DNA of 42,277 nt from a virus: the IMG/VR virus record IMGVR_UViG_3300027659_000070, positions 1 through 42,277 of that record; one strand, 5' to 3'. The notes beneath the pieces were generated by a model. It was not told the origin of the DNA, searched no databases, and was given only the letters and a program-made list of their open reading frames with translations. Below are positions 1-42,277 of this stretch, piece after piece (positions within the stretch are counted from its first letter, which is position 1; every line of letters begins with the position of its first letter). A program made the translations under genes and the position numbers.

Positions 1-58
1 CCTTCGCTTGCAGTGAGAGCAATTTAACTATACCCCCCTTGGGATCCAACAAACGGCT

Positions 59-108
59 AATAAAGAACGCCGGATGTGCTAGTATAATCCGTGAGTTAGG
101 AGGAATAC
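59..108 (+). promoter_or_regulatory. Candidate late promoter and strong RBS
   Basis: A perfect TATAAT -10 box lies at 83-88, but no TTGACA-like hexamer is found 16-18 bases upstream (that position reads roughly AATAAA). The start codon at 109 is preceded by TTAGGAGGA, a near-ideal Shine-Dalgarno. A good -10 without a -35 in front of a rightward block that runs to 27 kb suggests an activator-dependent late promoter; the activation is inference. Confidence 0.45.
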
Positions 109-834
109 ATGGCACAGTTTGAAGCATTCGGGACTAACCCGAACGAGATGCGCGCCAAGGGTTCGACGGCGGCGTTTAAGCGTCGGCAATCGTCCGCTGT
201 CCGGTGCCTGGGTAGCGCGACTGATGCGCTTTCCGGGTTTGATCGTGGCGCCCATGTTTTCGGCCTGACTAAAGGCCAATTTTCAATGATCGACATTGCG
301 TCGGCGGTGCTGGCAAAGACCGGGCCGGCTGATGTCTCCGTGTGGACCTGGTGCATTGCGGAATACGAGGTCCAGGCGATCACGGCATTCATGACCAACG
401 GCGCGGTGTCCGGCTTCCGGCTGGTTATGGACTGGGCTGGCGCACAGCGGGACATGCCGATCGTGGCGGACTTACAGGCGCAGTTTGGTGACGACTGCGT
501 GCGGGTGACGAAAAGCCACGCTAAGATCGTGACGATTTCGACGAAATGTGGATGGCGGGTGGTGATCCGTGGGTCGATGAACCTGAACGCCAATCCGCGC
601 TTTGAGCAATCCGATGTGTCCGACGATCCCGCAATCTACGCGGTGGTCGACGACATGATGGCGGAGATGTGGGCGCGCGGGCGGCCGCTCCCGGTCCGGC
701 GCATGGTCCATGCGGACGCGGTAAACCTGCTGGCCGCATCGGACGTGAAAGACGCGCCCGCGACATGGATGCCGGCTGCTGCTGGCGATTGGTGGGGTAA
801 TGCGAGGCAAAAAGCCGGCCGCGCCGGTCGATAA
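109..834 (+). CDS. PLD-like (HKD-type) protein ahead of terminase
   Basis: 241 residues, first gene of the late block. A single phospholipase-D/Nuc-like signature is visible near residues 140-165: a SHAKIV stretch (HxK) followed by GSMNLN (GSxxN). In the usual HxK-x4-D-x6-GSxxN pattern the Asp position here holds Ser, so the site is degenerate. Single-HKD proteins of this superfamily act as dimers, often as nucleases; some phage members sit next to terminase genes. Start chosen from the strong RBS at 97-105. The 3' end overlaps TerS by 35 bases. Role in packaging or DNA-end processing is inference; it may have lost catalysis and only bind DNA. Confidence 0.7.
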   Translation: MAQFEAFGTNPNEMRAKGSTAAFKRRQSSAVRCLGSATDALSGFDRGAHVFGLTKGQFSMIDIASAVLAKTGPADVSVWTWCIAEYEVQAITAFMTNGAVSGFRLVMDWAGAQRDMPIVADLQAQFGDDCVRVTKSHAKIVTISTKCGWRVVIRGSMNLNANPRFEQSDVSDDPAIYAVVDDMMAEMWARGRPLPVRRMVHADAVNLLAASDVKDAPATWMPAAAGDWWGNARQKAGRAGR

Positions 835-1270
835 CGTCGTTGCCGGGGTTTTCGCCTCGGCGGCGGTATCGGAACCGGACTGGCTGACGGAATACCCCGG
901 CGAAAGCTGGGGGGAGCGAGCGGCAGAGATTGCCAGCCAGAAATGGAATGCGGCCGTTGCGGATATGACCCGTATGCGGACGCTCGGGCCGGAGAACGCA
1001 ACCGCGCTGGAAATGCTGGCGGTGAGCTATGCGCGGTGGCGACTGGCCGAGGCGCATATAACGAAACACGGTCCGGTGGTCCCTGCGCCACGAACCGGGA
1101 CCCCGATGCAAAACCCGTATCTCTCGATTGCGAATGGTGCCGCTGAGCGTTGCATGAAGATCGAGGCTGAGTTGGGCCTGCCGCCATCAATGCGCGGGCG
1201 GGTCGGTAAAACTGCTGCGGTGAAGAAGGCTACGAATGCGGCAGACAGGTTCCTTGCCACGAAAGCGTAA
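800..1270 (+). CDS. terS: Terminase small subunit (P27-like)
   Basis: 156 residues. Position directly before TerL, size, and a helical central part followed by a C-terminal segment with PYLSIANGAAERCMKIEAEL, typical of P27-type small terminases (the N-P-x-L/x-x-A pattern then a helix ending LGLPPSMRGRV). TerS recognises the packaging site and loads the large subunit. The start at 800 lies inside the end of the PLD-like gene and follows GGTGGGGTA. The 3' end overlaps the TerL start by 35 bases, so the three genes are translationally linked. The DNA-binding N-terminal part is not obvious by eye. Confidence 0.8.
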   Translation: MRGKKPAAPVDNVVAGVFASAAVSEPDWLTEYPGESWGERAAEIASQKWNAAVADMTRMRTLGPENATALEMLAVSYARWRLAEAHITKHGPVVPAPRTGTPMQNPYLSIANGAAERCMKIEAELGLPPSMRGRVGKTAAVKKATNAADRFLATKA

Positions 1271-3047: not shown

Positions 3048-3051
3048 CCTG

Positions 3052-4281
3052 ATGGGCATCCTCCACCGCATCATCGGATTTGCTGCAAAGATGACTTCGC
3101 TCGAATTGTTTCGCGAGGTTTACGGCGGCGGTAGGGAAAGCACGGCCGGCGTCACGATTAACACGCAGGCGGCGCTTGAGACGGCAACCGCGCTGGCGTG
3201 CGGCCGTGTGATTTCGGAGGGGTGCGCGCAAACCCCGTGGCATCTGATGCAAGAGCGGGACGGGCGCAAGCAGGTCGCTGACGATCCGCTAGATTACGTG
3301 CTTTATCGTCGGCCGAACCCCTGGCAGACTAGCTTTGAATACCGCGAGACCGTGCTGTTGCACGCGATATTCTGCGGAAACGCCTACAGTTTTATGAACC
3401 GGGTTGGCGTCGCGCGTGAAATCCGCGAACTGATCCCGATCGAGCCGGGCCGGGTCACGGTCAAGCAACTCCCGAACATGTCGCTGCAATATCGGGTGAC
3501 GGCGGACACGGGAGAGGCCAAGGACTTCGGCCAAGACGCCATCTGGCACCTTCGCGGCCCGTCCTGGAACTCGTGGATGGGCCTGGATGCGGTCAAGATG
3601 GCCCGAAATGCCCTTGGCCTGGCCATTTCGCTGGAGCAGGGGCAGGCCGAGTTTCAGAAAAACGGCGCCAAGGTAACGGGCGCGGTTTCGGTTGATGGCC
3701 GGCTGGACAAGGCGCAGTTTGAGCAAATGGCAGCATGGCTTGACCGCCACCAGATCGGCGGCGACAGGTCACATAAGCCGCTGATCGCGGACCGAAACGC
3801 AAAATTCCTCCCGATGACCATGACCGGCGTCGATCAGCAGCTAATCGAGACCCGGCGCCACCAGATCGAGGAAATCTGCCGGCACTTCCGCGTCATGCCG
3901 ATCATGGTCGGGCATTACGACAAGTCATCGACTTATGCGAGCGCGGAGCAAATGTTTCTTGCTCACGTCGTCCACACTTTGATGCCCTGGTATCAGCGGA
4001 TCGAGCAATCGGCGGACGTGAACCTGCTGAGCGAAGAACAGCGCCGGGCGGGCCTCTACACCAAGATCAACCCGAATGCCCTGATGCGCGGCGCGGCGAA
4101 GGACCGGGCCGAGTATTACGCCAGGGGCCTGGGCTCTGGCGGCGGCAAGGGGTGGCTCACCCAAAACGATGTGCGGGGCTTTGAGGACATGGACCGCAGC
4201 GACGATCCCGAGGCCGATGAACTTGCGCAACCCGCAACCGCTCAACCTTCAGCCAGCCCGCCGGCTGATCCCGGCGCGTAA
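3052..4281 (+). CDS. Portal protein, HK97 family
   Basis: 409 residues from the ATG at 3052, four bases after the TerL stop; an in-frame ATG at 2959 would read 31 residues of TerL antisense-quality sequence (Arg/Trp/Pro rich) and is rejected. The protein opens MGILHRIIGF and contains blocks usual in Phage_portal proteins: TALACGRVISEGCAQTPWHL near 47-66, the RRPNPWQTSFEYRE stretch, HLRGPSWNSWMGLDAV, and EEICRHFRVMPIMVGHYDKSS. The C-terminus is a disordered Pro/Ala tail. The dodecameric portal forms the DNA channel at the head vertex and docks the terminase. Confidence 0.93.
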   Translation: MGILHRIIGFAAKMTSLELFREVYGGGRESTAGVTINTQAALETATALACGRVISEGCAQTPWHLMQERDGRKQVADDPLDYVLYRRPNPWQTSFEYRETVLLHAIFCGNAYSFMNRVGVAREIRELIPIEPGRVTVKQLPNMSLQYRVTADTGEAKDFGQDAIWHLRGPSWNSWMGLDAVKMARNALGLAISLEQGQAEFQKNGAKVTGAVSVDGRLDKAQFEQMAAWLDRHQIGGDRSHKPLIADRNAKFLPMTMTGVDQQLIETRRHQIEEICRHFRVMPIMVGHYDKSSTYASAEQMFLAHVVHTLMPWYQRIEQSADVNLLSEEQRRAGLYTKINPNALMRGAAKDRAEYYARGLGSGGGKGWLTQNDVRGFEDMDRSDDPEADELAQPATAQPSASPPADPGA

Positions 4282-4293
4282 GGGATACCCCGA

Positions 4294-4941
4294 ATGGACA
4301 GGCTTGATTTCGCCCTCGAAGTGAAGGGTCTGACGGATGCTGGCCATTTTGAGGGCTACGCGTCGACGTTCGGTGAGCGCGACCTTGGCGGCGATATCGT
4401 GGTTGCCGGCGCGTTCAAGAAGTCCATCAAGGCCAGCGGCGCCAAGGGCGTCAAGATGTTCGCGGACCACAATTCGACCAAGCGGATCGGGGTGTGGACG
4501 GACATCGCCGAGGACGAAAAGGGCCTGTTCGTCAAAGGCCGCCTGTTGCTGGAAAAGCAGGATGGCAAGGATGCCTATATCGACCTCAAGGAGGGCGTCA
4601 TCGACGCCATGTCGATCGGGTATCGTGCGGTTGATCATTCCTACGATGGGCGGCGCAAGGCGCGGCTGTTGAAGGAAGTCCGTCTGTTTGAAATCAGCCT
4701 GCTCCCGTTCGGAATGAACGAAAGCGCCCGCGTGACGGGCTTCAAGGCGGCTGAGGAAATCCAGACCATTCGAGAGTTTGAGGAAGCGCTGATCAACGGG
4801 ACGTTGCCGGCGCTGTCCGCGAAGGAAGCCAAGGGCCTTCTGGCCGGTGGCTTTCGTGCAATCCGATCCGAGCGGGATGCCGGTGGGGTGAGCGAAGAAC
4901 TGGCGGAACTCGTCCGCCGAAACACCCAACTTCTCCGTTAA
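4294..4941 (+). CDS. Prohead maturation protease, HK97 family
   Basis: 215 residues, typical of the U35/S78 Ser protease family. Visible motifs: GYASTFGERDLGGDIVVAGA near 21-40, catalytic-type His59 in VKMFADHN, Ser107 in DAMSIGY, and LFEISLLPFGMNESARV at 131-147 with E133. The enzyme digests the capsid delta domain during prohead maturation. An AAGGGA sits ahead of the ATG. Gene order portal-protease-capsid supports the call. The C-terminal 60 residues are a charged helical tail, probably the scaffold-binding part removed by self-cleavage (inference). Confidence 0.92.
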   Translation: MDRLDFALEVKGLTDAGHFEGYASTFGERDLGGDIVVAGAFKKSIKASGAKGVKMFADHNSTKRIGVWTDIAEDEKGLFVKGRLLLEKQDGKDAYIDLKEGVIDAMSIGYRAVDHSYDGRRKARLLKEVRLFEISLLPFGMNESARVTGFKAAEEIQTIREFEEALINGTLPALSAKEAKGLLAGGFRAIRSERDAGGVSEELAELVRRNTQLLR

Positions 4942-4955
4942 GGAACCCTACTACA

Positions 4956-6278
4956 ATGGATATGACCGAGTTCAAGAGCCTGCTGGACAAGCAGGGCGAA
5001 GCCTTCGAGGCGTTCAAGGCGACGCATGACGATCTGAAAAAGGCCGATGTCGTGACGGCTGAGAAGCTGATGCGCATCGAAAAGTCGCTGGATCAGGCCG
5101 TCGAGGCCAAGGCCGCGATCGAGGCCGCGATCAAGGCCGAAAAGGCGGAACGCGAGGCGCTGGAACTCAAGATCAACCGGTCCGGCCTGCGCGGCACCGA
5201 AACCGAGGTCAAGCGGGCGCTGGAACTCAAGGAGTTTAACGTCCAGATCGGCGGGATCATGGCCGAGAAGCGCCAGGCGTTCACGCCGCTGGAGGATGCC
5301 GGATATGACGCCTACAAGGTCGCGCTGGATGTCTACACCCGGAAGGGCCGCGACGCCCTGAACTCCGACGAGTTCAAGGTTCTGGCGGTCGGTTCCGACC
5401 CGGATGGCGGCTACTTCGTGACTCCGGACACGGGCGGGCGCATCGTCCGCAAGGTCTATGAAACCTCCCCGATGCGGCAGATCGTGTCGGCTCAGACCAT
5501 CTCCACCGACGCGCTGGAAGGCATCGAGGACCTGGGAGAAGCCGGCGCCGGCTACGCGGGCGAACGGTCGCAGGGCAGCGACACCACGACGCCGCAGGTC
5601 GGCAAGTGGCGCATCCCGGTATTCTGGATCGACACCGAACCCAAGACCACGCAGCAACTTCTCGACGACGCCTCGGTTGACATCGAGGGCTGGCTGTCAG
5701 GCAAGGTGGCGGACAAGTTCGGCCGTTTCGAGAGTGCCGAGTTCGTGACGGGCGCGGCGAACAAAATCCGCGGGATCACTAGCTACACCATGGCGGCCGA
5801 CAGCGGATCGGGCGTCACCTGGGGTTCGGTCGGCTATGTGGCAACAGGCACCTCGGCAGCGTTCCCGTCGTCCAACCCCGCCGACAAGCTGTATGACCTG
5901 ACGGGCACGCTCAAGTCGGCGTATCTCGCCAACTCGAGGTGGTTGACGCGCCGCTCGGTCGTCACTGCTATCCGCAAGTTCAAGGACGGCATGGGCAACT
6001 ACCTGTGGCAGCCTTCTTTCGTGGCGAACGTCCCGGAGACGATCATGGGCTATCCCGTGACGCGTGCCGAGGATATGCCGGCGATCGGCGCGGACAGCCT
6101 CTCCCTCGCGTTCGGTGACTTCGCGCAGTTCTACCAGATCGTCGACCGGCAAGGCATCCGCGTGCTTCGCGACAACCTGACCAGCAAGCCTTACGTCAAG
6201 TTCTACACAACCAAGCGGGTCGGCGGGGGCGTGGTCAATTACGAGGCCGTGAAGTTCATGAAGTTCGGCACGTCGTAA
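4956..6278 (+). CDS. Major capsid protein, HK97 fold with delta domain
   Basis: 440 residues. Residues 1 to about 100 are a long charged coiled coil (repeated ...VEAKAAIEAAIKAEKAERE...), the expected scaffolding delta domain. The HK97 fold begins near 130 with LNSDEFKVLAVGSDPDGGYF and VTPDTGGRIVRKVYETSPMR, followed by IPVFWIDTEPKTTQQLLDDA and a C-terminal strand RVGGGVVNYEAVKFMKFGTS. This is the main shell protein. AAGGA lies upstream of the ATG. Protease cleavage near residues 100-130 is expected from family knowledge; the exact site cannot be read. Confidence 0.95.
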   Translation: MDMTEFKSLLDKQGEAFEAFKATHDDLKKADVVTAEKLMRIEKSLDQAVEAKAAIEAAIKAEKAEREALELKINRSGLRGTETEVKRALELKEFNVQIGGIMAEKRQAFTPLEDAGYDAYKVALDVYTRKGRDALNSDEFKVLAVGSDPDGGYFVTPDTGGRIVRKVYETSPMRQIVSAQTISTDALEGIEDLGEAGAGYAGERSQGSDTTTPQVGKWRIPVFWIDTEPKTTQQLLDDASVDIEGWLSGKVADKFGRFESAEFVTGAANKIRGITSYTMAADSGSGVTWGSVGYVATGTSAAFPSSNPADKLYDLTGTLKSAYLANSRWLTRRSVVTAIRKFKDGMGNYLWQPSFVANVPETIMGYPVTRAEDMPAIGADSLSLAFGDFAQFYQIVDRQGIRVLRDNLTSKPYVKFYTTKRVGGGVVNYEAVKFMKFGTS

Positions 6279-6302
6279 CTAGCGGAGACAGGAAGAACCA
6301 CC

Positions 6303-6755
6303 ATGAACATCCACAACCTCCTCAACAATACCAAGATCACGCGGGTTTCGGCGGACGGCGCTGGCGCCGCTTCCGCCACGCCGACCAAGGCCACCATCAT
6401 CGACATGGACGGCTTTGACAGCGTGTGTTTCATCGCGGCGATGGGCAACGTCTTGGATACGTCGGTGCTGACGCTGAAAGCGGCGGGGGCAACGACCAAT
6501 TCCACGGGCGCGATGGCTCTGCTGACCGGCAGCGCGACCTTCACGGCCGGCGCGTCGGACGCGGACGACAAGTTGATCATCCTGGACGTGGTGCGCCCTC
6601 CCTACCGCTACATCGAGGCGCAGCTGTTCCACGTGACCGCGAACGGGCCGTTCGATGGCATCTTTGCCATCCAATACAACGCGTCCCGCGTCCCGACCAC
6701 GCAGGGATCGACCGTGATCGCCTCCGCGACGACCGATAGCCCGGTTCTGGCGTAA
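6303..6755 (+). CDS. Probable head decoration-type protein, unknown family
   Basis: 150 residues, preceded by AGGAAGA. The sequence is Ala/Thr/Gly rich with predicted beta structure (DMDGFDSVCFIAAMG, DDKLIILDVVRPPYRYIEAQLF) and no membrane segment. It lies straight after the capsid gene and is followed by a factor-independent terminator, so it shares a high-level transcript with the capsid. Position and composition suggest a capsid-associated protein, but I do not recognise a named family; inference only. Confidence 0.75.
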   Translation: MNIHNLLNNTKITRVSADGAGAASATPTKATIIDMDGFDSVCFIAAMGNVLDTSVLTLKAAGATTNSTGAMALLTGSATFTAGASDADDKLIILDVVRPPYRYIEAQLFHVTANGPFDGIFAIQYNASRVPTTQGSTVIASATTDSPVLA

Positions 6756-6760
6756 CCAGC

Positions 6761-6784
6761 GGCGGGCTTCGGCCCGCCCTTTTT
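6761..6784 (+). terminator. Rho-independent terminator behind capsid genes
   Basis: A perfect 7-bp stem GGCGGGC / GCCCGCC (6761-6767 and 6772-6778) closed by a TTCG tetraloop, then C and five T (6780-6784). It lies between the 150-residue head protein and the next gene. Since all genes to 27 kb read the same way, it probably attenuates rather than ends late transcription, or is overcome by an antitermination system. Confidence 0.85.
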
Positions 6785-6800
6785 CTGACGGAGACCGGCC

Positions 6801-7217
6801 ATGGCCGCAGCTTTTCGGCAGGGCGACCAAGCCCTGATGATCGACGGGACGGAGGTCACGGCCTCCGCTACCGAAGTCAATACCTACGTCGTGGGCCTGG
6901 ATATCGCGGATGGGTCGGCCGAGGGCGTCTACTACGTGGTCTGCCCTCACGCCGGCACCATCTCGAAAATCTGGACGGTGATCGACGGCGCGGTATCGAC
7001 CGCCGATATCACCGTCACGGCGGCGATCGGTGCAACGGGCGTGACGAACGGCGTTGTGACGATCGCCACGGCGGCGTCGGGCGCCGGCGACATCGACAGC
7101 GCGACCCCAACCGCGGCGAACACAGTGACGGCCGGGCAGGCGGTGAATTTCACCGTCACGGGCGGCGGGTCGGGCGGGTCGCCGCGCGTCCACCTGGCCA
7201 TGGAAATCAGCCGGTAA
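6801..7217 (+). CDS. Hypothetical virion protein
   Basis: 138 residues; GGAGA six bases ahead of the ATG. It opens MAAAFRQGDQALMIDGTEV and has a beta-rich core with HAGTISKIWTVIDGAV STADITVTAAI (about residues 51-76) and a Gly-rich SGGSP loop near the end. Proteins with this AGTI...V-DGAV..ADITVT pattern are common between capsid and connector genes in siphoviruses, where they are usually unassigned or head-fibre/decoration candidates. No catalytic motif or signal is visible. Confidence 0.75.
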   Translation: MAAAFRQGDQALMIDGTEVTASATEVNTYVVGLDIADGSAEGVYYVVCPHAGTISKIWTVIDGAVSTADITVTAAIGATGVTNGVVTIATAASGAGDIDSATPTAANTVTAGQAVNFTVTGGGSGGSPRVHLAMEISR

Positions 7218-7230
7218 TCTGGGGGCACGA

Positions 7231-7596
7231 ATGCACGTCCAGACCTTCCCCGTGGCGGTGACGACGGACGCGAGCGGCGACGCCACGGCCTATTCCGATC
7301 CGGTCAACGGCCTGCTTTCGCAGGTCCGATACGTCAAGACGGACTTCGCCAACGGCGTCGACTTCACGATCACGTCGGACGCCACGGGCGAAACCCTGTG
7401 GACCGAGAGCGACGTGAACGCCAGCGCCACCCGCGCGCCCCGCCAGGCGACGCACTCCACCGCCGGGGCCGCGTCCCTCTATGCGGCGACCGGACAGCCG
7501 GTGAACGACATGATCGCCGTATCCGGCCGGATCAAGATCGTGGTCGCGGCCGGCGGCGACACGAAAACCGGGACCTTCTATTTCGTGACGGTGTGA
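7231..7596 (+). CDS. Hypothetical virion protein
   Basis: 121 residues, beta-rich, opening MHVQTFPVAVTTDASGDATA and ending GDTKTGTFYFVTV. The pattern VRYVKTDFANGVDFTITSDATGETLW resembles small beta-sandwich proteins found between capsid and connector genes. Its stop overlaps the next start by one base (TGATG at 7594-7598), so it is translationally coupled to the head-tail connector. Function unknown; a head-associated structural role is inferred from position only. Confidence 0.75.
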   Translation: MHVQTFPVAVTTDASGDATAYSDPVNGLLSQVRYVKTDFANGVDFTITSDATGETLWTESDVNASATRAPRQATHSTAGAASLYAATGQPVNDMIAVSGRIKIVVAAGGDTKTGTFYFVTV

Positions 7597-8228
7597 TGCT
7601 GACGATCGTCACGGCTGCGTCCGACCGCTCGCTGTTGACGACGGCGCAGATGCGCGCGGCGATCGGCCTCGATCCGAGTGACGCATCGCAGGACGCGGCC
7701 CTAGTTGGGTTCGGCGCTATGGTCGCGGATGCGATGGCGCGGGATTGCCTCCAACTCTCCGTTGCGCCGGCCACGCCGCCTACGTTTCGCCAGGAGACGC
7801 TTTCCGAGGTGTTCCGGCCCTTCCGTGCGGAACCATCCTTGAAGCTGTCCAGGCGCCCCGCAACGTCCGTCTTGTCGGTGGTATCCGATGGAGTGACGCT
7901 GGACACGGACGAATACGAACTGGACGCGTCGAGCAACCTGCTGTTCGCCCTGTCCGACGATGCCAGGATGAAATGGGCCGGCAAGAAGATCACGGTTGGC
8001 TATGTCGCCGGCTATGCGACGGTTCCCGATGCCCTGGCCATGGGCGCGTCTAAGCTGCTCCGCATGGTCTGGTCCGAGGATGGGCCGGGCGCGAGGTCTG
8101 ACCCAAACCTGAAAAGCGTCGACATCGAAGGCGTCGGCCGGCGGGAATGGTGGGTCGGCGGCGCATCGGACCCGCTCATGTCCGAGGAAATCCGGGAACT
8201 GCTTTTCCCCTTTCGGGAGCTTCGCTGA
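7596..8228 (+). CDS. Head-tail connector (HK97 gp6-like adaptor)
   Basis: 210 residues from the ATG at 7596, which overlaps the previous stop. A longer frame back to 7398 is mostly Arg-rich shadow sequence and is rejected. N-terminal SLLTTAQMRAAIGLDPSDASQDAALVGFGAMVADAM is the helical start usual in gp6-like adaptors (a short helix, then AAT..IE-type helix); the middle has a beta domain (DTDEYELDASSNLL, ITVGYVAGYATVP) and a C-terminal helix ending EEIRELLFPFRELR. Such proteins form the ring below the portal. Stop overlaps the next ATG (TGATG). Confidence 0.82.
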   Translation: MLTIVTAASDRSLLTTAQMRAAIGLDPSDASQDAALVGFGAMVADAMARDCLQLSVAPATPPTFRQETLSEVFRPFRAEPSLKLSRRPATSVLSVVSDGVTLDTDEYELDASSNLLFALSDDARMKWAGKKITVGYVAGYATVPDALAMGASKLLRMVWSEDGPGARSDPNLKSVDIEGVGRREWWVGGASDPLMSEEIRELLFPFRELR

Positions 8229-8617
8229 TGGCCATCCCCGGTCTTTACACCCTGGTATCCGAAACCGTCACCACGGCAGTGACGGCACAGGCACAAACCG
8301 CGATCGACAACCTGGACGGCATGACCCGCGCCACGTTCGAGGCGACGTTCTCAGGCACGGGCGGATCGACGGCGGTTGCGCTGATCCAGTCCCGCATGGG
8401 TTCCGCTGGGGCCTGGCGGGAGATTGCGAGCATCGATTTTGCGGCGGCCGGCTCGAAGTCATGCACGGTCGTATCTACAGCAGCCACACCCGCCGCATTC
8501 GCCACGCTGTCCGCTAACTCGGTCCTGAATTGGCTTGGAACGGAATTGCGGGCAGTTATTACGTCAACAGGCACATGGGCAAGCGGGGCGCTGGCGGTTC
8601 GGGTCCATGTGACGTGA
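8228..8617 (+). CDS. Hypothetical head-tail region protein
   Basis: 129 residues from the ATG at 8228, coupled to the previous stop. It is Ala/Thr/Ser rich and probably all-beta (ATFEATFSGTGGSTAVALIQ, KSCTVVSTAATPAAFATL, LRAVITSTGTWASGALAVRV). It sits between the adaptor and the stopper, where phages often carry a small accessory structural protein. I do not recognise a family. Its stop overlaps the GTG start of the next gene (GTGA). Confidence 0.72.
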   Translation: MAIPGLYTLVSETVTTAVTAQAQTAIDNLDGMTRATFEATFSGTGGSTAVALIQSRMGSAGAWREIASIDFAAAGSKSCTVVSTAATPAAFATLSANSVLNWLGTELRAVITSTGTWASGALAVRVHVT

Positions 8618-8991
8618 CCTTCCAATCCGACCTAGACGCCATGCTCGCCTCATTCGGCCAGGACGTAATCCTACGCCGCATCACCGGCACAACGAACCAA
8701 GTCTCCGTAGACTGCCCCTGCCGCGCTCTTGTCCGAGGCTACCAGCCCAAGGAACTGGCCGGCGGGATCATCCAAGGCGATACCCACGTTATCATCTCCG
8801 CGACCGATATCAACCGCGCGCAATGGCCGGGTGGCGAGCCTGTAACGAACCCGCCGGCTGTCAATGATCCTCGGGTGCCGCGTGCTGGCGACCGCATTAT
8901 CATTGAGGGCCGGTCCCGTGGGGTTGTCTTTGCCGATCCGATCTACATCAACGGGGAACTGCACCGGATCAATGTGCAGGTGCGCGGCTAG
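8614..8991 (+). CDS. Head closure / stopper protein
   Basis: 125 residues if started at GTG 8614, which makes a GTGA overlap with the previous stop; an upstream ATG at 8530 or 8575 and an internal ATG at 8641 are alternatives, and no strong RBS decides. The core LASFGQDVILRRITG and the end GVVFADPIYINGELHRINVQ are typical for head-closure proteins of SPP1 gp16 / HK97 gp7-like type, which plug the portal channel and offer the tail docking surface. Synteny (connector, stopper, gp10-like, terminator) agrees. Confidence 0.72.
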   Translation: MTFQSDLDAMLASFGQDVILRRITGTTNQVSVDCPCRALVRGYQPKELAGGIIQGDTHVIISATDINRAQWPGGEPVTNPPAVNDPRVPRAGDRIIIEGRSRGVVFADPIYINGELHRINVQVRG

Positions 8992-9623
8992 TGGCATCGC
9001 CGTTTGACACGTATATCCGCCTCCGCGTAGACCAGATGGCGGGACCGGAAGCGGTCAAAGCGTTTCACATCCAAACTGCCAAGACGGCGTTGTCGCAGTT
9101 CATGGCGCGGCAGTCCGTCCGCCCGATGGTGGACATCGAGGTTGATACCCGGCCCGCGCGGTCCGAAAGCGAGGTCAAGCCGTTCGGGCTGATCGTCTAC
9201 CGCTTTGGCCGAATGCGGGAAGTTGTCAGCTTCGCGCTCAGGGAATTGGAGAGACTTTCCCCGGTTCGCAGCGGCGCCTATCGCAAGGCGTGGCGGATCA
9301 TATCGCTGGCCGTGGCGTCGCGTGTCGGAAGGCCCGGCACCATGGCAAACGGCAACATCGGCCTGGACCAACTCGACGGCGCAACCACCGTGACGATTGT
9401 CAATCCCCTGCCCTACGCGCGCAAGGTTCATACCGGCGCCAAGGGCTTCGAGGTTCCGGCCGGCATTCTCGAAAAGGTCCGGCAACTGGTCCTCAAAAGG
9501 TATCGCCGCATCGTCTACGTCGGCATCCAGTTCATTTCGCTTTCGCCCGGATATCGCCTCAAGAAACCGCCCCGCTCCGGTCAACCGCTCACCTACCCCG
9601 CACTGGTCATCGAGGCGCTGTAA
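8991..9623 (+). CDS. Neck / tail completion protein (HK97 gp10-like)
   Basis: 210 residues starting with GTG at 8991, overlapping the previous TAG (TAGTG). Features: an N-terminal helix, then RELERLSPVRSGAYRKAWRI near 85-104, the usual S-P-V-D/R-S/T-G-x-Y/L-R motif of gp10/Gp64-like neck proteins, and VNPLPYARKVHTGAKGFEVP, matching the N-x-x-x-YA-x-x-x-E/H-G pattern. Longer than typical (about 120-170) because of about 60 additional N-terminal residues. Stop overlaps the next ATG (TAATG). Confidence 0.75.
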   Translation: MASPFDTYIRLRVDQMAGPEAVKAFHIQTAKTALSQFMARQSVRPMVDIEVDTRPARSESEVKPFGLIVYRFGRMREVVSFALRELERLSPVRSGAYRKAWRIISLAVASRVGRPGTMANGNIGLDQLDGATTVTIVNPLPYARKVHTGAKGFEVPAGILEKVRQLVLKRYRRIVYVGIQFISLSPGYRLKKPPRSGQPLTYPALVIEAL

Positions 9624-10081: not shown

Positions 10082-11206
10082 ATGGCATCCCCTCAAGGCG
10101 TGCTTGGCACGCGGCTGTTCATTTCGGATGCGGCGATCGCGTCCACCATTGACACGGAGCGCGAATTTTCGGCGCAGAGTTGGACCGAGGTGGGTCTAAT
10201 CACGCAGTTCGGCGAATATGGCCGGGTCTATGATCTGGTCACCTTCCAGCAGGTCTACGATGGCCGCACGTTCAAGCTGAAGGGCGGCCACAACGACGGC
10301 CAGATGACGCTCACGGTCGGGCAAGACCTGTCCGACGATGGCCAGGAATTGCTCTACAACGCCGCGAACGCCGCGACGCAGGACAATTGGGGCTTTCGCA
10401 TCGAGTTCAACGACGCGCCATCCTCGGTCGGCGGCCCCTCGACGGTCTTCTTCCGCGCCCTGCCCATGTCGTTCCGCTCCACCCTTGGCGCGGTCAATGC
10501 CGTGTTCTCGGCAACGTCCATGCTGGAAATCAACAGCCCGATCGTGACGGTGGACCCGGCCGAACTGTATGACACGTTCGATACCGGCGCCTCGCTGACG
10601 CATTACGAACTGTTCTCCGGTTCGGATGACCTGGCAGTCGATCCGGTCATTTCCTCGAACACCCTGGTCATGGTGACAGGCGACGCCGGCACCGGCTTTG
10701 CGGCGGACGGAACGCAGGCGATCGGCGACACGGGCTACACGCTCGCGGCCGGCGCGAAGGTGCTTGAGGCGCGGTTGAAACTGTCCGCTATCACCACCGT
10801 TTCAATGTTCTTCGGCTGGACGGACCAGAAAGCCGCGCTGGAAATCCCGATTGAAAGCGCGGCATCGGCGGACACGATCACGACCAACGCCACGGACGCC
10901 ATCGGGTTCATGTTCGATACGAGCATGGCCACCGACAACATCTGGCTGACCGGCGTCAACAACAATTCGGACGAAACCGCGCAGAACAGCGCCATTGCGC
11001 CGGTTGCCAACACATACATCACCCTCCGCATCGAAACGAACACCAGCGGGGATGCTACGTTCTACATCAACGGCGTGATTGCCGGTTCGCAGATGACGAC
11101 GGCGGCGGCAACCGGGGTGACGCTTTACCCCACGCTGGCGGCATCGGCTCGCACCACGTCGAGCCGGACGATGACGGTTGATTACCTCTACCTCCGTCAA
11201 GACTAA
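10082..11206 (+). CDS. Tail tube protein with C-terminal lectin-like domain
   Basis: 374 residues. Residues 1-155 are clearly paralogous to the next gene: both share GVLG(T/S)RL, EYGRVYD, DGRT(F/Y)KL, NDGQ, GQDL, and MSFR(S/T)TLGAVN and LEIN(S/T)PI. This is a tail-tube domain. Residues about 160-374 are an added beta-rich domain (YDTFDTGASLTHYELFSG, ATFYINGVIAGS, TMTVDYLYLRQD) with the look of a ConA/LamG-type jelly roll, plausibly projecting from the tube surface. Phages are known to decorate tails with such domains, usually Ig-like. Whether this or the short paralogue is the main tube subunit is not readable. Confidence 0.8.
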   Translation: MASPQGVLGTRLFISDAAIASTIDTEREFSAQSWTEVGLITQFGEYGRVYDLVTFQQVYDGRTFKLKGGHNDGQMTLTVGQDLSDDGQELLYNAANAATQDNWGFRIEFNDAPSSVGGPSTVFFRALPMSFRSTLGAVNAVFSATSMLEINSPIVTVDPAELYDTFDTGASLTHYELFSGSDDLAVDPVISSNTLVMVTGDAGTGFAADGTQAIGDTGYTLAAGAKVLEARLKLSAITTVSMFFGWTDQKAALEIPIESAASADTITTNATDAIGFMFDTSMATDNIWLTGVNNNSDETAQNSAIAPVANTYITLRIETNTSGDATFYINGVIAGSQMTTAAATGVTLYPTLAASARTTSSRTMTVDYLYLRQD

Positions 11207-11230: not shown

Positions 11231-11707
11231 ATGGCTGTAACCGGCGTATTGGGTTCCCGACTTTATACGTCGGCTACCGCTTTAACCAACATCGAGGCCG
11301 CTGCCGATGCGATCGGCGACTTCCAAGGTCTGACCATCGCAACCGAAATCGGCCTGATCGAAAGCATGGGCGAATACGGCCGGGTCTACGATACGGTCCC
11401 GTTTCAGCCCGTGGTGGATGGCCGGACCTACAAGCTGCGCGGCGGCAACAACGACGGCCAGTTCCAGATCACCATCGGCCAGGACCTGACCGACACAGGG
11501 CAAGCTCTGCTCAAGTCCTACGTGGCGGGCAATCAGGACACCTACCCCTTCAAGATCACAATCTTGGGCGCTGATGCCTCCTACGATACGGTCTACTTCG
11601 GCGCGAAGGTCATGTCGTTTCGGACCACGCTCGGGGCCGTCAATCAGGTGATCCGCGCAACGATCATCCTGGAAATCAACACGCCGATCTTTACCGGCGC
11701 CTCGTAG
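11231..11707 (+). CDS. Tail tube protein (short paralogue)
   Basis: 158 residues, preceded by AAGGA. It matches the N-terminal 155 residues of the upstream gene along its length but has no C-terminal extension, ending at LEINTPIFTGAS. It is the normal length for a minimal siphovirus tube subunit and is followed by strong RNA hairpins before the low-abundance chaperone gene, consistent with it being the abundant major tail protein (inference). Confidence 0.85.
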   Translation: MAVTGVLGSRLYTSATALTNIEAAADAIGDFQGLTIATEIGLIESMGEYGRVYDTVPFQPVVDGRTYKLRGGNNDGQFQITIGQDLTDTGQALLKSYVAGNQDTYPFKITILGADASYDTVYFGAKVMSFRTTLGAVNQVIRATIILEINTPIFTGAS

Positions 11708-27627: not shown

Positions 27628-27846
27628 CTACTGGCGGGTGGTGCTGCCGTAATCGGCACGAGCCGCCGCCAGAGCCTCCGGGCACCGCTCCCACGCATCG
27701 AGCAGCAGGAACAACCACCGAGGCGTCACCAGCACGCCGCGCACGTAGCGCGACAGGGCGTGGTGGCTGATGCCGGTGATCCTCGCCGCCTCGACCTGTG
27801 TTAGGCCGAGGCGCTTGATGGTGGGGGATATGTCGGTGGGGGTCAT
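27628..27846 (-). CDS. HTH regulator, left cassette copy
   Basis: 72 residues. The helix-turn-helix is LGLTQVEAARITGISHHALS with RY following (residues 14-35), like Cro/XRE-type proteins, then PRWLFLLLDAWERCPEALAA. By hand, the region from TIKRLGL to the AR before the C-terminus matches the + strand protein at 41649-41837 in about 38 of 55 positions. It is the last gene of a leftward unit and starts in an ATGA overlap with the gene above it, the same overlap as in the other copy. Probably binds DNA as a dimer; the target may be the inverted repeat in its own promoter (inference). Confidence 0.8.
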   Translation of the reverse strand: MTPTDISPTIKRLGLTQVEAARITGISHHALSRYVRGVLVTPRWLFLLLDAWERCPEALAAARADYGSTTRQ

Positions 27847-28151
27847 GCGGCGTCCGCTTCGTCGCGCGTCACCGCGACGCCGCCCACCTTGCGCCAGGCC
27901 AGATCACCGCCTTTGCTTTCGACCTCGGCCAGCAACGCGGCGGATGCTGGGTGGACCGTCAGGCCAGACCGGCGTGTCCAGCTTCCCAACTGCTCGGTGC
28001 TGTCGTCGTCGTCGTCCAGCAGCGCCACTCGCGCGGTGCGGAACGCGTATTCTGCATCGGCCCACGCTGCGTCAACGGTCGCGCCAGTTCCGTAGATGAT
28101 GCCTTCGTTGTCGTTGATGATGTAGCCGGCGGCGGTCATGGTGTCGGTCAT
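27843..28151 (-). CDS. Conserved small protein A, left cassette copy
   Basis: 102 residues, AGGAGA upstream. Unknown family. From GYIINDNEGIIYGTG to the end it aligns without gaps with the + strand protein at 41368-41652; 59 of 93 positions are identical by hand. Conserved blocks are TVDAAW, DSTE-LG-WTR-SGL and AWR-VGGVAV. It differs by eight additional N-terminal residues and an Asp run (DDDDD). Cotranscribed with and coupled to the HTH gene in both copies, so it may be a partner or modulator of that regulator (inference). No membrane or enzymatic motif. Confidence 0.8.
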   Translation of the reverse strand: MTDTMTAAGYIINDNEGIIYGTGATVDAAWADAEYAFRTARVALLDDDDDSTEQLGSWTRRSGLTVHPASAALLAEVESKGGDLAWRKVGGVAVTRDEADAA

Positions 28152-28187
28152 TTGCTTGTCTCCTATGCGGGCTTAGTTCCGGGGGGA

Positions 28188-28400
28188 TTAGGCGGCTTCG
28201 ATCTCGCGCGCATAGGCACGAGCGGCGTCGGTGTAGTCCCGTGCGTTCGGTCGGAGCCATTCGCCGGCGCGCTTGCGGGATACCCCGGTCACCAGCGCCG
28301 AGGCGTCTCCGGTTGCAATGTCCTCGTCGGTGGACCCAGGCGCGTGCAGGCTCCAGCCGCCGTCGCCTTGGTCTGAGCGGGTCAGAATGAAGTCGGTCAT
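28188..28400 (-). CDS. Small unknown protein in left cassette
   Basis: 70 residues, MTDFILTRSDQGDGGWSLHA at the start and ...DYTDAARAYAREIEAA at the end. CGGGAG lies upstream, behind a UUCG hairpin. This gene has no counterpart in the right cassette, where the hairpin is followed directly by protein A, so it is an insertion in one copy or a loss from the other. Function unknown. Confidence 0.65.
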   Translation of the reverse strand: MTDFILTRSDQGDGGWSLHAPGSTDEDIATGDASALVTGVSRKRAGEWLRPNARDYTDAARAYAREIEAA

Positions 28401-28421
28401 GGTCAGTGCTCCCGTGCTGGT

Positions 28422-28435
28422 GGGGCCGAAGCCCC
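28422..28435 (-). other. UUCG hairpin of left cassette
   Basis: Read leftward: GGGGC TTCG GCCCC, a very stable cUUCGg tetraloop, followed by CCACCAGCACGGGAG and a start codon. The right cassette has the same hairpin and context at 41334-41347. No T-run follows, so it is more likely an mRNA stability or translation element than a terminator. Confidence 0.65.
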
Positions 28436-28444
28436 CGGTTGTGG

Positions 28445-28777
28445 TCAGTAGTGGTGGCGCGAACCGACGTAGTTGAAATCCTCGGTGGGATCGTCGCGCA
28501 GGCGGTCAAAGTTGATGCTGATCTTCTTCCCATATCCGTAATCGGAACCGGGATCGTCGTATCCGTATGTCCCGATTTCGATCTTGGCGGCGGTAAGAAG
28601 TTGCATGATTTGCGCCTTCAATTCCCGCTGCTCGCCGCTGTTGCGTGGGGCGTATCCGATGGTGATGCTGACCCAGCCGTGACCTGTGCCGCGCGAACCT
28701 TTGACGCTGACCCCGTATCCGGCGAATGCCTTGGAGAGGAGACCCTTGATGGCGCGGTTGCGTTCGGCTGTGGTCAT
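28445..28777 (-). CDS. Unknown protein, first gene of left cassette
   Basis: 110 residues from ATG 28777, with AGGAAGGAA upstream; an upstream in-frame ATG at 28822 lies at the transcription start and is rejected. Sequence: MTTAERNRAIKGLLSKAF, then GHGWVSITIGYAPRNSGEQR and a Gly/Tyr-rich IGTYGYDDPGSDYGYGKKIS. The arrangement (helix, basic strand, G-x-W/V strand) is like small phage proteins related to LPD29-type domains, but I cannot confirm this. It has no similarity to the first gene of the right cassette. Confidence 0.65.
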   Translation of the reverse strand: MTTAERNRAIKGLLSKAFAGYGVSVKGSRGTGHGWVSITIGYAPRNSGEQRELKAQIMQLLTAAKIEIGTYGYDDPGSDYGYGKKISINFDRLRDDPTEDFNYVGSRHHY

Positions 28778-28824
28778 CGTCTGCGTTCCTTCCTGTGGGC
28801 CGGCCATCCCGTCCCGATACACCC

Positions 28825-28853
28825 TTTATATCGCCCCCACGGCGACCCGTCAA
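28825..28853 (-). promoter_or_regulatory. Sigma70-type promoter of left cassette
   Basis: Reading leftward: -35 TTGACG (28853-28848), 17-base spacer, -10 TATAAA (28830-28825), about 48 bases before the ATG at 28777. The spacer is filled by an inverted repeat TCGCC-N5-GGCGA (28831-28845). The leader shares ACGGGATGGCCGG (28800-28812) with the right cassette. An additional perfect palindrome GCGAT TTA ATCGC lies upstream at 28873-28885. Confidence 0.8.
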
Positions 28854-29031
28854 CGATGAAATGGCCTCTACGGCGATTTAATCGCGGGGTGGCGTGAGAC
28901 ACTACGGCGGTTGATGCTATTCGGTGAGATGGAACGGGAAACGGTGTCGCCGCTTTGCTAGGGTGTGGCGCTGTTGCTTTCCAGGCAATGAGCCGGCCGC
29001 CGTCACTGCCACACACGGCGCCGGACAGATA
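28854..29031. other. Intergenic stretch between two leftward units
   Basis: Together with the promoter and hairpin on either side this forms a 370-base gap (28778-29147) without a supported gene. Apart from the 13-base palindrome at 28873-28885 I see no coding signal, no RBS-preceded ORF of interest and no tRNA-like structure in it. Confidence 0.5.
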
Positions 29032-40015: not shown

Positions 40016-40280
40016 GGCAAAAGAAGTGCGGGTAGAAGTGCGGGAAAGTGCGAAAACGACCCGCACTTCTTCTTCCGGGCCTATAGTGAAGTGCGGAAGT
40101 GCGGGTGCCCTGCAAGCTCCGCTCAGAAGTGCGGAGACTTGCGGGCACACCGCTTCCGCCCCTCACAACCGGCCCGGTCTGGCCCGGCGAGAAGTGCGGA
40201 GTTTTAATTATTGGACGGCGGGAAGCGAGGCCGCAGCGACACGGGCCGCGATGATCCGGCGGGGGATTGGGAGGGCGTGA
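40008..40280 (+). CDS. Possible protein overlapping the iteron array
   Basis: 90 codons; the ATG overlaps the helicase end by eight bases and the stop makes a TGATG with the next gene, which supports translation. But the sequence (MDRAKEVRVEVRESAKTTRT..., KCGSAGALQAPLRSAETCGH) is shaped by the DNA repeats and looks like no known protein. In lambda the origin iterons lie within the O initiator gene, so a coding origin is possible here too. Uncertain. Confidence 0.4.
   Translation: MDRAKEVRVEVRESAKTTRTSSSGPIVKCGSAGALQAPLRSAETCGHTASAPHNRPGLARREVRSFNYWTAGSEAAATRAAMIRRGIGRA
40022..40213. repeat. Iteron array with AT-rich element: candidate replication origin
   Basis: The 9-mer GAAGTGCGG occurs at 40023-40031, 40035-40043, 40088-40096, 40096-40104, 40126-40134 and 40191-40199 (direct), inverted at 40061-40069, plus a degenerate copy AAAGTGCGA at 40045-40053. 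Most direct copies are preceded by A. Right after the last copy lies GTTTTAATTATT (40201-40212), a rare AT-rich stretch in this genome. Iterons plus an AT-rich unwinding element next to a replicative helicase gene is the classical origin layout. Confidence 0.75.
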
Positions 40281-40492
40281 TGCCACCAGCTTACGCCAAG
40301 GCCCCGGACCCATCCGACTACGCCACCCCGCGCACCATCCGCCCCTACTCCCTCGGCCAGAACGCCGAATGGGATGCCGTGTCGCGGATGCTCGCGGCTG
40401 GGTTGGTGACCGTGGAGCCTGATCCGATGGCGCGCGGGTTTGTGCGTGTCTCCGCCGTGCCTATCCGTCAACGCAAGGAACCCCGCCCATGA
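40280..40492 (+). CDS. Small unknown protein after origin
   Basis: 70 residues from ATG 40280 (TGATG overlap). MPPAYAKAPDPSDYATPRTI, RPYSLGQNAEWDAVSRMLAA, GLVTVEPDPMARGFVRVSAV. Pro-rich start and an alpha/beta C-terminal half. Stop overlaps the next ATG (ATGA). Unknown function. Confidence 0.65.
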   Translation: MPPAYAKAPDPSDYATPRTIRPYSLGQNAEWDAVSRMLAAGLVTVEPDPMARGFVRVSAVPIRQRKEPRP

Positions 40493-41034
40493 AGCCCCGC
40501 AAGCAGCCCAAGCCAGCCCCCGCGCCAGCGCCCCGGACAGCAGCAGCCGTGGTCCTCGCCCATCATGGCGTGATGAAAGCCGCCTGGGCGGATCCCGACG
40601 ACATGGACCCGCTACGGCGTGAGGCGCGGCTGATCCTGGGAGAGCGGCGATACGACCCGCTGCTCATGCTCCACCGGCAGACGCCGGAGCGGTGGAGCAA
40701 CGCCATGGTGGGCGCTGGCGAGCGGTATCGGCGGGACTATGAGGTCGGTGTGCTTGGCGCCTCGTCAGCCGGTGGTCGTGGCGCAATCGACCTGCCATGC
40801 CCACACGTCAAAGCCTGGGGCAAAGCCGCGGCGTTGACGCGGCACCATGCCGCACGGGATGCGCTCGGTCCGACGCTGCACGCGTTCGCGTCCGACCTGC
40901 TGGTGTCGCGGTTGTCATTGGCGGCGATCACCAGCGCCCGCGGCTTGCCTCGTGATCGGACTGCGGCGATGGTCGAGGCTGCCATGTTGCGGTTGCTGGA
41001 CCACTATGACGGGACGAAGCCCAAACGCGAATAA
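40489..41034 (+). CDS. DUF6456-like protein, possible late regulator
   Basis: 181 residues. After a Pro/Ala-rich N-terminus: AGERYRRDYEVGVLGASSAG, ALTRHHAARDALGPTLHAFA, SDLLVSRLSLAAITSARGLP, RDRTAAMVEAAMLRLLDHYD. The pattern (AG-x-R/Y...D-x-E..., ARR...AL-x-x-L-G-P, ...E-x-x-x-G-W/L-P-x-R-x-A-x-x-x-x-x-A-L-x-x-L-A-x-x-Y) is that of the DUF6456 C-terminal region of alphaproteobacterial regulators. Last gene before the right cassette promoter, so control of late genes is conceivable. Confidence 0.55.
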   Translation: MKPRKQPKPAPAPAPRTAAAVVLAHHGVMKAAWADPDDMDPLRREARLILGERRYDPLLMLHRQTPERWSNAMVGAGERYRRDYEVGVLGASSAGGRGAIDLPCPHVKAWGKAAALTRHHAARDALGPTLHAFASDLLVSRLSLAAITSARGLPRDRTAAMVEAAMLRLLDHYDGTKPKRE

Positions 41035-41057
41035 TCGCCTGTCGGTCCACTATCTTG

Positions 41058-41086
41058 TTGACGGTCCGCCCGTGGGGCGATATGGT
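41058..41086 (+). promoter_or_regulatory. Sigma70-type promoter of right cassette
   Basis: -35 TTGACG (41058-41063), 17-base spacer, -10 TATGGT (41081-41086). The spacer carries CCGCC-N5-GGCGA (41066-41080) in the same register as the inverted repeat in the left promoter. The leader shares ACGGGATGGCCGG (41099-41111) with it. About 48 bases from -10 to the ATG at 41134, also as in the left copy. Confidence 0.8.
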
Positions 41087-41133
41087 GTGGTCATGGGAAC
41101 GGGATGGCCGGACCCGAGAAAAGGACGCAGGAC

Positions 41134-41325
41134 ATGCACATTCAGGAAGCCACCTACACCGTGATCGTGACGCCTGCCCACATGCGCGTTTTCGAGGCGT
41201 TCAAGGCGCCGATCGCAATCCTCCACGACGACCCGTTGTTCGAATTCCCCGCCGAGCTGCGGATGACGGCAAACGAGGCCCGCGCCCTGGCCGCGCACCT
41301 GATCCGGCTGGCGGACGCCGCCTAA
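41134..41325 (+). CDS. Small unknown protein, first gene of right cassette
   Basis: 63 residues from ATG 41134, with AAAAGGACGCAGGA upstream; the earlier ATG 41104 lies only about 10 bases from the predicted transcription start and is rejected. MHIQEATYTVIVTPAHMRVF, then ELRMTANEARALAAHLIRLA, the latter being a helix as in many small phage proteins. Unrelated to the 110-residue gene in the same place of the left cassette. Confidence 0.65.
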   Translation: MHIQEATYTVIVTPAHMRVFEAFKAPIAILHDDPLFEFPAELRMTANEARALAAHLIRLADAA

Positions 41326-41333
41326 CACAACCC

Positions 41334-41347
41334 GGGGCTTCGGCCCC
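41334..41347 (+). other. UUCG hairpin of right cassette
   Basis: GGGGC TTCG GCCCC followed by ACCAACGGGAG and the start of protein A. It matches the left-cassette hairpin (28422-28435) including flanks CC...CACCA and CGGGAG, so this noncoding element has been kept in both copies. Confidence 0.65.
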
Positions 41348-41367
41348 ACCAACGGGAGACACAGACC

Positions 41368-41652
41368 ATGGCCTACATCATCACCGACAACGACGGCATC
41401 ATCCAGGGCACAGGCGACACGGTAGACGCAGCATGGGACGACGCCCGCGCCACACTGGCGGCCGCGCAGGTCGAGCTTATTGGCGACGACGTAGATAGCA
41501 CCGAGTGCCTGGGCAATTGGACGCGTGAAAGTGGGTTGCGGTGCCTGCCTGCGTCGGATGCGGTGATCGCTGCTGTGATGGACGAGGGCGGCGACATCGC
41601 CTGGCGGACGGTCGGCGGCGTCGCTGTTACGACGGCCGAAGCCGACGCATGA
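41368..41652 (+). CDS. Conserved small protein A, right cassette copy
   Basis: 94 residues; CGGGAG upstream. AYIITDNDGIIQGTGDTVDA, DSTECLGNWTRESGL and AWRTVGGVAVTTAEADA are the shared blocks with the left copy (59 of 93 identical by hand). No known family. Ends in an ATGA overlap with the HTH gene, as in the left copy. Confidence 0.8.
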   Translation: MAYIITDNDGIIQGTGDTVDAAWDDARATLAAAQVELIGDDVDSTECLGNWTRESGLRCLPASDAVIAAVMDEGGDIAWRTVGGVAVTTAEADA

Positions 41653-41837
41653 TTAACGCCACTCTCAAGCGCCTCGGTCTGACCCAGACCGAGGCCGCTG
41701 CAATTCTCGGCATCAGCCACCACACGCTATCCCGCTACGCCCGCAACGCCCTTCCCGCGCCTCGCTGGCTGCTGCTGATCCTGGCTACATGGGAAGCGCA
41801 CCCCGAGGCATTGGCCAAGGCACGCGAAAATGTTTGA
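41649..41837 (+). CDS. HTH regulator, right cassette copy
   Basis: 62 residues from ATG 41649. MINATLKRLGLTQTEAAAIL, then GISHHTLSRYARNALPAPRW and LLLILATWEAHPEALAKARE: HTH followed by a hydrophobic, Trp-containing helix, paralogous to the 27628-27846 protein. An additional residue block at each end of the left copy is missing here. Likely autoregulator of the cassette promoters and possibly of late genes, since on a circular map it points into the HNH and terminase genes. Confidence 0.8.
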   Translation: MINATLKRLGLTQTEAAAILGISHHTLSRYARNALPAPRWLLLILATWEAHPEALAKARENV

Positions 41838-41860
41838 CACACTCCGGCAATGTGTGCCAA
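41834..41860. promoter_or_regulatory. Inverted repeat after the right HTH gene
   Basis: TTGACACAC (41834-41842) and GTGTGCCAA (41852-41860), 8 of 9 positions complementary, 9-base centre. It begins on the HTH stop codon and lies 65 bases before the HNH gene. No T-run follows, so an operator is as likely as a weak terminator. Confidence 0.4.
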
Positions 41861-41925
41861 TGGGTTGATACCCTGGCGGTTATAGCGGCTGCTTTTCCCG
41901 ATAATCCGAACCAAGGGTTGCCATC

Positions 41926-42277
41926 ATGCCTAGCAACCCGTTCTACCGTTCGCAAGCCTGGCGCAAAGCGCGGGCCGCATTCCTCGCAACTCACCCCATC
42001 TGTAGCGTTCCTGGCTGCGACGCCCGAGCAACCGACGTGGACCACGTGCGAACCATCCGATCAGGTGGCGACGCGCTAGACCCGGCTGGCTTCCGAGCCT
42101 ACTGCCACCAGCATCATTCCCAGAAGACGGCCAGACGCGACAGAGGCGCCTACAGACGCAGCGACAAGCCGGTCGTGGCCCATGGATGCACCGCCGATGG
42201 CGTGCCTCTCGATCCGGGGCACCCTTGGCGCAAGGGGGCGGGGGGGATCGAATCCCTAGGCCGAATGGGGCTGGAAC
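41926..42277 (+). CDS. HNH endonuclease, open at the window end
   Basis: 117 complete codons from ATG 41926 (AAGGG upstream), no stop before the window ends. MPSNPFYRSQAWRKARAAFL, then ICSVPGCDARATDVDHVRTI and DPAGFRAYCHQHHSQKTARR: Cys pairs, DH and H-x-x-H form the HNH/zinc-finger motif. HNH proteins of this size beside terminase genes are known parts of cos-type packaging. If the sequence is joined end to start the frame would remain open to a TGA at 120-122; the usual end of such proteins (...GGIESLG...) has already been passed, so the true stop may be close or a few bases are missing. Confidence 0.85.
   Translation, partial: MPSNPFYRSQAWRKARAAFLATHPICSVPGCDARATDVDHVRTIRSGGDALDPAGFRAYCHQHHSQKTARRDRGAYRRSDKPVVAHGCTADGVPLDPGHPWRKGAGGIESLGRMGLE

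Follow-up and report, generated by a model that had tools for sequence, protein, structure and literature searches.

A putative autorepressed, Aca-like accessory operon present twice in a viral genome, with one operator and a shared 5′ leader

Anti-defence genes usually sit in self-repressed accessory operons. In the Aca families, one or two inverted repeats (IRs) lie inside the core promoter, this promoter is repressed, and the HTH gene is the last of the operon (PMC9410906). Aca3, a protein of 70 residues, has MqsA 3FMY as its best structural template (PMC9410906), and Aca10 operons follow the same plan (PMC9410881). The two loci described here are like acr-aca operons (Aca1-Aca10, most closely Aca3, Aca1 and Aca10) in having a near-consensus sigma-70 promoter with an IR in the core promoter, small variable genes and a small HTH gene at the end, and their HTH protein has the same best template as Aca3. 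However, the operator is different, the sequence similarity is weak, and there are two copies on one operator with a conserved 5′ leader; since no validated anti-CRISPR gene is a neighbour, the comparison is one of "works like" and not of "is". The loci also resemble the MqsRA and HigBA systems, in which an HTH protein of the MqsA/HigA fold is encoded by the last gene of an autoregulated operon, but they lack the zinc-binding N-terminal domain of MqsA and a toxin homologue, and the upstream partner changes. An earlier note on this DNA knew of no described system with this layout; this was too strong, since autorepressed acr-aca operons are built in the same way (PMC9410906).

On purely computational evidence, we consider it likely that the window (the whole stretch of 42,277 nucleotides that was analysed) carries two copies of an accessory operon that is autorepressed and Aca-like. 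Its sigma-70-like promoter, with a near-consensus -35 element, would be read by the host polymerase early after entry, and the transcript would code for small, exchangeable cargo proteins, one to three per operon. An HTH protein of 62-72 residues, encoded last, would bind YCGCC-N5-GGCGA as a dimer and switch the promoter off. The two operons would lie at the far ends of the leftward and rightward early regions, and both repressors would probably act on both promoters, making up one two-promoter regulon.

Layout and history of the two cassettes

The left unit (28853-27628, minus strand) extends from the -35 element at 28853 to the stop codon of the HTH gene at 27628. Its promoter and leader are followed by cargo gene 1, the UUCG hairpin and cargo gene 2, and the genes of protein A and HTH come last. 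On the plus strand, the right unit (41058-41837) has its parts in the same order, with a different cargo gene 1 and no cargo gene 2 (Table 1). Comparison of the left unit (reverse complement) with the right unit by blastn gave three collinear matches: one over protein A and HTH (467 bp, 66%, E 1e-27, with E calculated against the whole window), one over the hairpin (58 bp, 86%, E 3e-10), and one over the promoter and leader (78 bp, 73%, E 7e-5). The hairpin GGGGCTTCGGCCCC and the word ACGGGATGGCCGG are each exact in both units, with two occurrences in the window and no others. Protein A is 63-64% identical and HTH 65% identical between left and right, and the two genes overlap by ATGA in both units. 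The homology reaches outside the two proteins, into the promoter/leader and the hairpin, and the units are diverged copies of one cassette, as the earlier note had described them, with promoter, leader, hairpin, protein A, HTH and ATGA overlap all paralogous. It had also been right that the first genes differ, with no similarity in the alignment of the two units, and that the left copy has one additional gene. Apart from the cassettes, strong repeats within the window are confined to two tail-type genes and the fibre repeats; the tail-type genes are adjacent (10211-10543 and 11369-11689), share 67% DNA identity and represent a second duplication.

Table 1 Features of the two cassettes (window coordinates).
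Feature	Position	Strand	Remarks
Left promoter	28825..28853	-	-35 TTGACG (28853-28848), N17, -10 TATAAA (28830-28825)
Left operator TCGCC-GTGGG-GGCGA (putative)	28831..28845	-	in -35/-10 spacer; 5/5 pairs at +16
Left leader ATCGGGACGGGATGGCCGGCCC	28797..28818	-	predicted mRNA +1 to +22; foldable hairpin
Left cargo gene 1, 110 aa, pI 9.2	28445..28777	-	weak LPD29-like match below cut-off
Left intercistronic UUCG hairpin	28421..28436	-	3′ of cargo gene 1
Left cargo gene 2, 70 aa	28188..28400	-	ORF; absent in right copy; conserved in G001 and G002
Left protein A, 102 aa, pI 4.2	27843..28151	-	family not recognised
Left HTH, 72 aa	27628..27846	-	MqsA C-terminal-domain type; ATGA overlap with protein A
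Right promoter	41058..41086	+	-35 TTGACG (41058-41063), N17, -10 TATGGT (41081-41086)
Right operator CCGCC-CGTGG-GGCGA (putative)	41066..41080	+	4/5 pairs; 5/5 in G001
Right leader ATGGGAACGGGATGGCCGGACC	41093..41114	+	predicted +1 to +22
Right cargo gene 1, 63 aa	41134..41325	+	ORF; unrelated to left gene 1; without family matches
Right intercistronic UUCG hairpin	41334..41347	+	sequence
Right protein A, 94 aa, pI 4.1	41368..41652	+	ORF, homology to left protein A
Right HTH, 62 aa	41649..41837	+	ATGA overlap with protein A; AF2 pLDDT 96.5

Two related contigs, G001 (IMGVR 3300046005_001312; L003, L007) and G002 (IMGVR 3300034105_002823; L009, L004), have both units in matching positions, which excludes an assembly artefact. 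The ends of the window are contiguous in the relative L005 (bases 115-2114 match window 40279-42277, and bases 2126-8994 match window 3-6875), and it is therefore reasonable to place the two units on a circular map, as had been done before. For protein A, orthologues are 94-100% identical, whereas paralogues are 63% identical; because the orthologues are much closer than the paralogues, the duplication is older than these phages. The dN/dS values of orthologues are 0.10-0.15 for the right protein A (window versus G002 and G001), 0.11-0.14 for the right HTH and 0.06 for the left HTH, and those between paralogues are 0.21-0.23, with dS near 1.2-1.3. Both copies are under purifying selection, and the earlier suggestion that selection keeps both of them is supported by the orthologue values (0.06-0.15).

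Gene conversion between the two HTH genes has taken place inside the G002 genome: over the first 60 nt that were compared, its left HTH gene agrees with its own right gene at 59/60 positions and with the left genes of the window and G001 at 44-45/60, and the remainder is left-type. The left cassette of G002 has lost protein A, gained a small gene and kept the HTH gene; in that of G001, another gene takes the place of gene 1 and the hairpin sequence differs. We note that the left protein A gene of the window (27843-28151) has 0 differences over 309 nt from L003 10001-10309 and that its flanks differ by several percent, suggesting a recent exchange between phages.

The HTH protein and its putative operator

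The HTH proteins match Pfam MqsA_antitoxin (E 1e-7 for the left, 2e-6 for the right) and PDB 3fmy (E 2e-4). The right AF2 model is confident (pLDDT 96.5), and its fold matches HigA2, MqsA, Aca1, Aca2 and Aca10 with TM of about 0.6-0.8, with Foldseek E-values that are weak owing to the shortness of the protein. The HTH is an MqsA/HigA/Aca-fold protein of 62-72 residues. The MqsA profile is matched only at positions 70-130 of 131, and the likeness to Aca proteins is at the structure level only (E 0.9 for Aca1 in phmmer). The recognition helix, SHHxLSRYxR, is common to the left and right proteins. Members of the HTH family are found in operons of small variable ORFs with the HTH gene last, often with an ATGA overlap, and in the wider family the upstream gene changes from locus to locus, with other neighbours in other phages. 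Cellular matches are mostly distant or are full-length MqsA. Because HTH relatives were found in a Bradyrhizobium phage and an Acetobacteraceae MAG, and the best terminase match is that of Azospirillum phage Cd (47.5%), we infer an alphaproteobacterial host.

The putative operator, YCGCC-N5-GGCGA, is an inverted repeat between the -35 and -10 elements of each cassette promoter. Across the three phages, all six promoters keep CGCC, GGCG and the following ATAT and vary in the spacer bases; the right operator is without one arm pair in 2/3 phages. The only exact occurrences of the operator with its -10 element (YCGCCN5GGCGATAT) in the whole window are those at the two cassette promoters, of which the left is the best promoter of its region and is kept in G001 and G002. 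Distant HTH relatives have an arm5-N5-arm5 repeat centred +16 to +18 from the -35 start, with half-sites such as AGGGC/GCCCT or AGGCA/TGCCT. At least 4/5 pairs were formed in 11/12 non-redundant promoters (shuffled spacers: mean 0.58, maximum 5 in 20,000 trials). These 12 promoters were picked by hand, leaving out L031, L035 and L040-L042, which have no TTG-type promoter or no repeat at the expected place; L044 fails the position-fixed repeat test. Because of this choice by hand, a blind automated test was run on 20 further HTH homologues from a new scan. A promoter was called in 15, and the repeat was found in 13/15 (11/13 after duplicate removal), compared with 5% of dinucleotide shuffles, and in 0/8 on the reverse strand. 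The position-fixed test and the blind set replaced a free palindrome test (arm 6, all gaps), which was too noisy by itself.

From these observations, the most likely target of repression by each HTH protein is its own operon, and since the half-sites and the recognition helix are shared, each probably represses both promoters. Of the two regulators with diverged or cross-acting specificity that the earlier note had envisaged, the cross-action is thus what we predict, and the shared half-sites and helix argue against the divergence. Several points count against an autorepressed, Aca-like operon: the promoter and IR geometry is missing in the six loci named above and in 5/20 loci of the blind set, the right operator is short of an arm pair in most of the three phages, the cargo genes match no known anti-defence protein, and TA antitoxins have the same fold and layout.

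Further half-sites and promoters were observed. Each of the six cassette promoters has a second TCGCC half-site (AATCGCC), which lies about 31 bp further upstream than the first (within 28857-28880 and 41034-41056 in the window) and may be part of a second operator (IR2). Upstream of position 1601 in L089, two promoters precede one HTH gene, with arm5-N5-arm5 repeats of different sequence (AGTAT/ATCCT and ACGCA/TGCGT).

The shared 5′ leader

The new part of the finding is the shared 5′ leader, for which we found no published description in the literature. The leader AUCGGGACGGGAUGGCCGGACC, of 22 nt, is common to both cassettes. A leader word had been noted before as shared by the pair; it is indeed exact in both units, but it is not diagnostic of them, as it also marks cassettes of other phages. 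When IMG/VR was scanned for GGRACGGGATGGCCGRMCC, 18 contigs were found. The sites in L108, L114 and L115 are within apparent genes and have no promoter, which fits the rough chance expectation of a few. A -35 element (TTG[AC][CG]) lies 37-39 nt upstream in 14/14 distinct promoter-associated leader sites (control, 2%). Because of this fixed distance, the leader is placed at the predicted transcription start, and both mRNAs are predicted to begin with the same 22 letters. AT at -3/-2 before the leader, outside the search pattern, is also conserved.

The operators upstream of the leader differ among contigs (CCCAACCT-N14-AGGTTGGG in L100 and GAGCGTAT-N23-ATACGCTC in L105), and so do the first genes downstream. 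In L105, L107 and L111, which are long enough, the last gene of the operon is an HTH gene of the same broad kind, and none was seen in L109 and L116, whose stretches are short. L107 (375-908) has two tandem leader promoters, 515 bp apart and both with GTGCA/TGCAC, ahead of a single terminal HTH gene; such a one-repressor, two-promoter cassette was also observed in L113 and L117. The leader is absent from the plasmids and named phages searched and was not found behind TTGAC in 385 alphaproteobacterial genomes. The leader-bearing phages are probably an alphaproteobacterial group.

At the 5′ end, the leader RNA folds as CGG-GA-CGG-GAUGG-CCG-GA-CCG into a short hairpin. The leader AUG is not kept in frame (G001L, G001R, L107b, L109), so an N-terminal peptide was rejected and the conservation is of nucleic acid. 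Tentatively, the leader may be a 5′-terminal RNA (or +1 DNA) element read by one common factor, such as the polymerase, a host RNA-binding protein or a phage protein, which would put unrelated cassettes with private repressors under one expression control. We regard it as unlikely that the leader is the functional core of these loci, with the HTH genes secondary and the 5′ RNA hairpin recognised by a common host or phage factor, acting on RNA polymerase in put-like antitermination, or protecting the mRNA. This reading is favoured by the same 18-19 nt at a constant distance from -35 in all 14 sites, with differing operators, cargo and HTH genes, by the lack of a peptide, and by the common fold, whose closing pair is C-G in six sequences and G-C in three; this probably reflects two independent double changes and supports the fold weakly. 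However, the search used an exact pattern, so the invariance of the core is partly by construction; the covariation comes from one pair (30/500 shuffles), some sequences fold hardly better than their shuffles, and roles at the DNA level are also possible. Aca2 reportedly binds stem-loops of its own mRNA, and the RNA hairpins are therefore worth testing.

Two described elements are comparable with the leader. The SAS/ESAS of cluster K mycobacteriophages are likewise short conserved sequences near the starts of unrelated small genes (PMC3203893), but the SAS, GGGATAGGAGCCC, lies 3-7 nt before start codons with many copies per genome (PMC3203893), whereas the leader is a different word at promoter +1 with two copies in the window. 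The put RNA of HK022 is also an RNA element of early phage transcripts, and it suppresses pausing and termination by direct polymerase contact (PMC9378689). Both elements are the nearest precedents in kind, and neither is a match.

Cargo genes, genome position and meaning

Left cargo gene 1 is 95% identical in G002 and has homologues (47-97%) in other contigs, which precede different HTH genes in L111, L102 and L103, and the left gene 1 of G001 has homologues in a Pseudomonas phage and a Xanthomonas phage. The cargo genes are short, of unrecognised families and swapped between phages, as expected of acr-aca loci. Among annotated families, they had no match to an anti-CRISPR or other anti-defence protein. 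An assignment of left cargo gene 1 to LPD29 was rejected (E 0.11, below the cut-off), and a genome-wide LPD29 search gave no matches anywhere, controls included. The cargo probably serves counter-defence or host take-over; we infer only that an anti-defence function is plausible, and a system acting on the host, which the earlier note had also considered, is possible via the cargo.

Protein A is strongly acidic (pI 4.1-4.2) and is the usual direct upstream partner of the HTH gene in these phages. Its AF2 model was unusable (pLDDT 49), and no homologues were found in 385 alphaproteobacterial genomes, INPHARED phages or GTDB contigs. The UUCG hairpin was rejected as an intrinsic terminator as it has no U-run, and no Rfam families were found within the window.

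The cassettes lie at module boundaries, the usual place of accessory genes. The earlier note had suggested that the bracketing regulators may limit late transcription. We consider it improbable that the HTH proteins bind at or near late promoters and limit or switch structural transcription. The right cassette does have a DUF6456 (GafA-type) gene on one side and the terminase gene on the other, and a palindrome after the right HTH gene (41834-41860) is conserved in all three phages. However, operator and -10 are exact only at the cassette promoters, the palindrome is without the cassette half-sites, HTH relatives in other phages have different neighbours, and a better candidate for a late regulator is the DUF6456 protein (GafA, PMC9638019). 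Its gene (40489-41034) is directly upstream of the right cassette and is of the GafA C-terminal type (Pfam match 1.5e-9; DUF6456 is the family that GafA matches, PMC9638019), and bears on the origin of GTA control. The near-palindrome, TTGACACAC-N9-GTGTGCCAA, is followed by a conserved TACCYTGGCGGTYATAGCG before the HNH/terminase genes, possibly an activator-dependent late promoter.

A type II TA system of MqsRA/HigBA layout, in which protein A would be the toxin and the HTH protein the antitoxin and autorepressor, is equally doubtful. The MqsA/HigA fold, the gene order, the overlap and the usual position of protein A directly upstream of HTH are as expected for such a pair, but the left cassette of G002 has HTH without protein A, the upstream gene in the wider HTH family varies by locus, the upstream genes had no match to MqsR and no similarity to HigB, and protein A is very acidic. 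A selfish module, with leader and hairpin as homology anchors for cassette swapping and a duplicate without separate function, agrees with the cargo exchange at these boundaries and the gene conversion between copies but has little probability, as the exact spacing of leader to -35 and the purifying selection on both copies of protein A and HTH point to a function in place.

The autorepressed, Aca-like operon supplies a search rule for self-repressed accessory operons in uncultured phages, namely an arm5-N5-arm5 repeat centred 16-18 nt after the -35 start and an HTH gene of 60-70 residues in last place. Cargo gene 1 and protein A, both of small families, become anti-defence candidates, and the leader is a regulatory element directly testable by reporter. 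The twin copies, together with the gene conversion, suggest that one phage keeps two operons on one operator.
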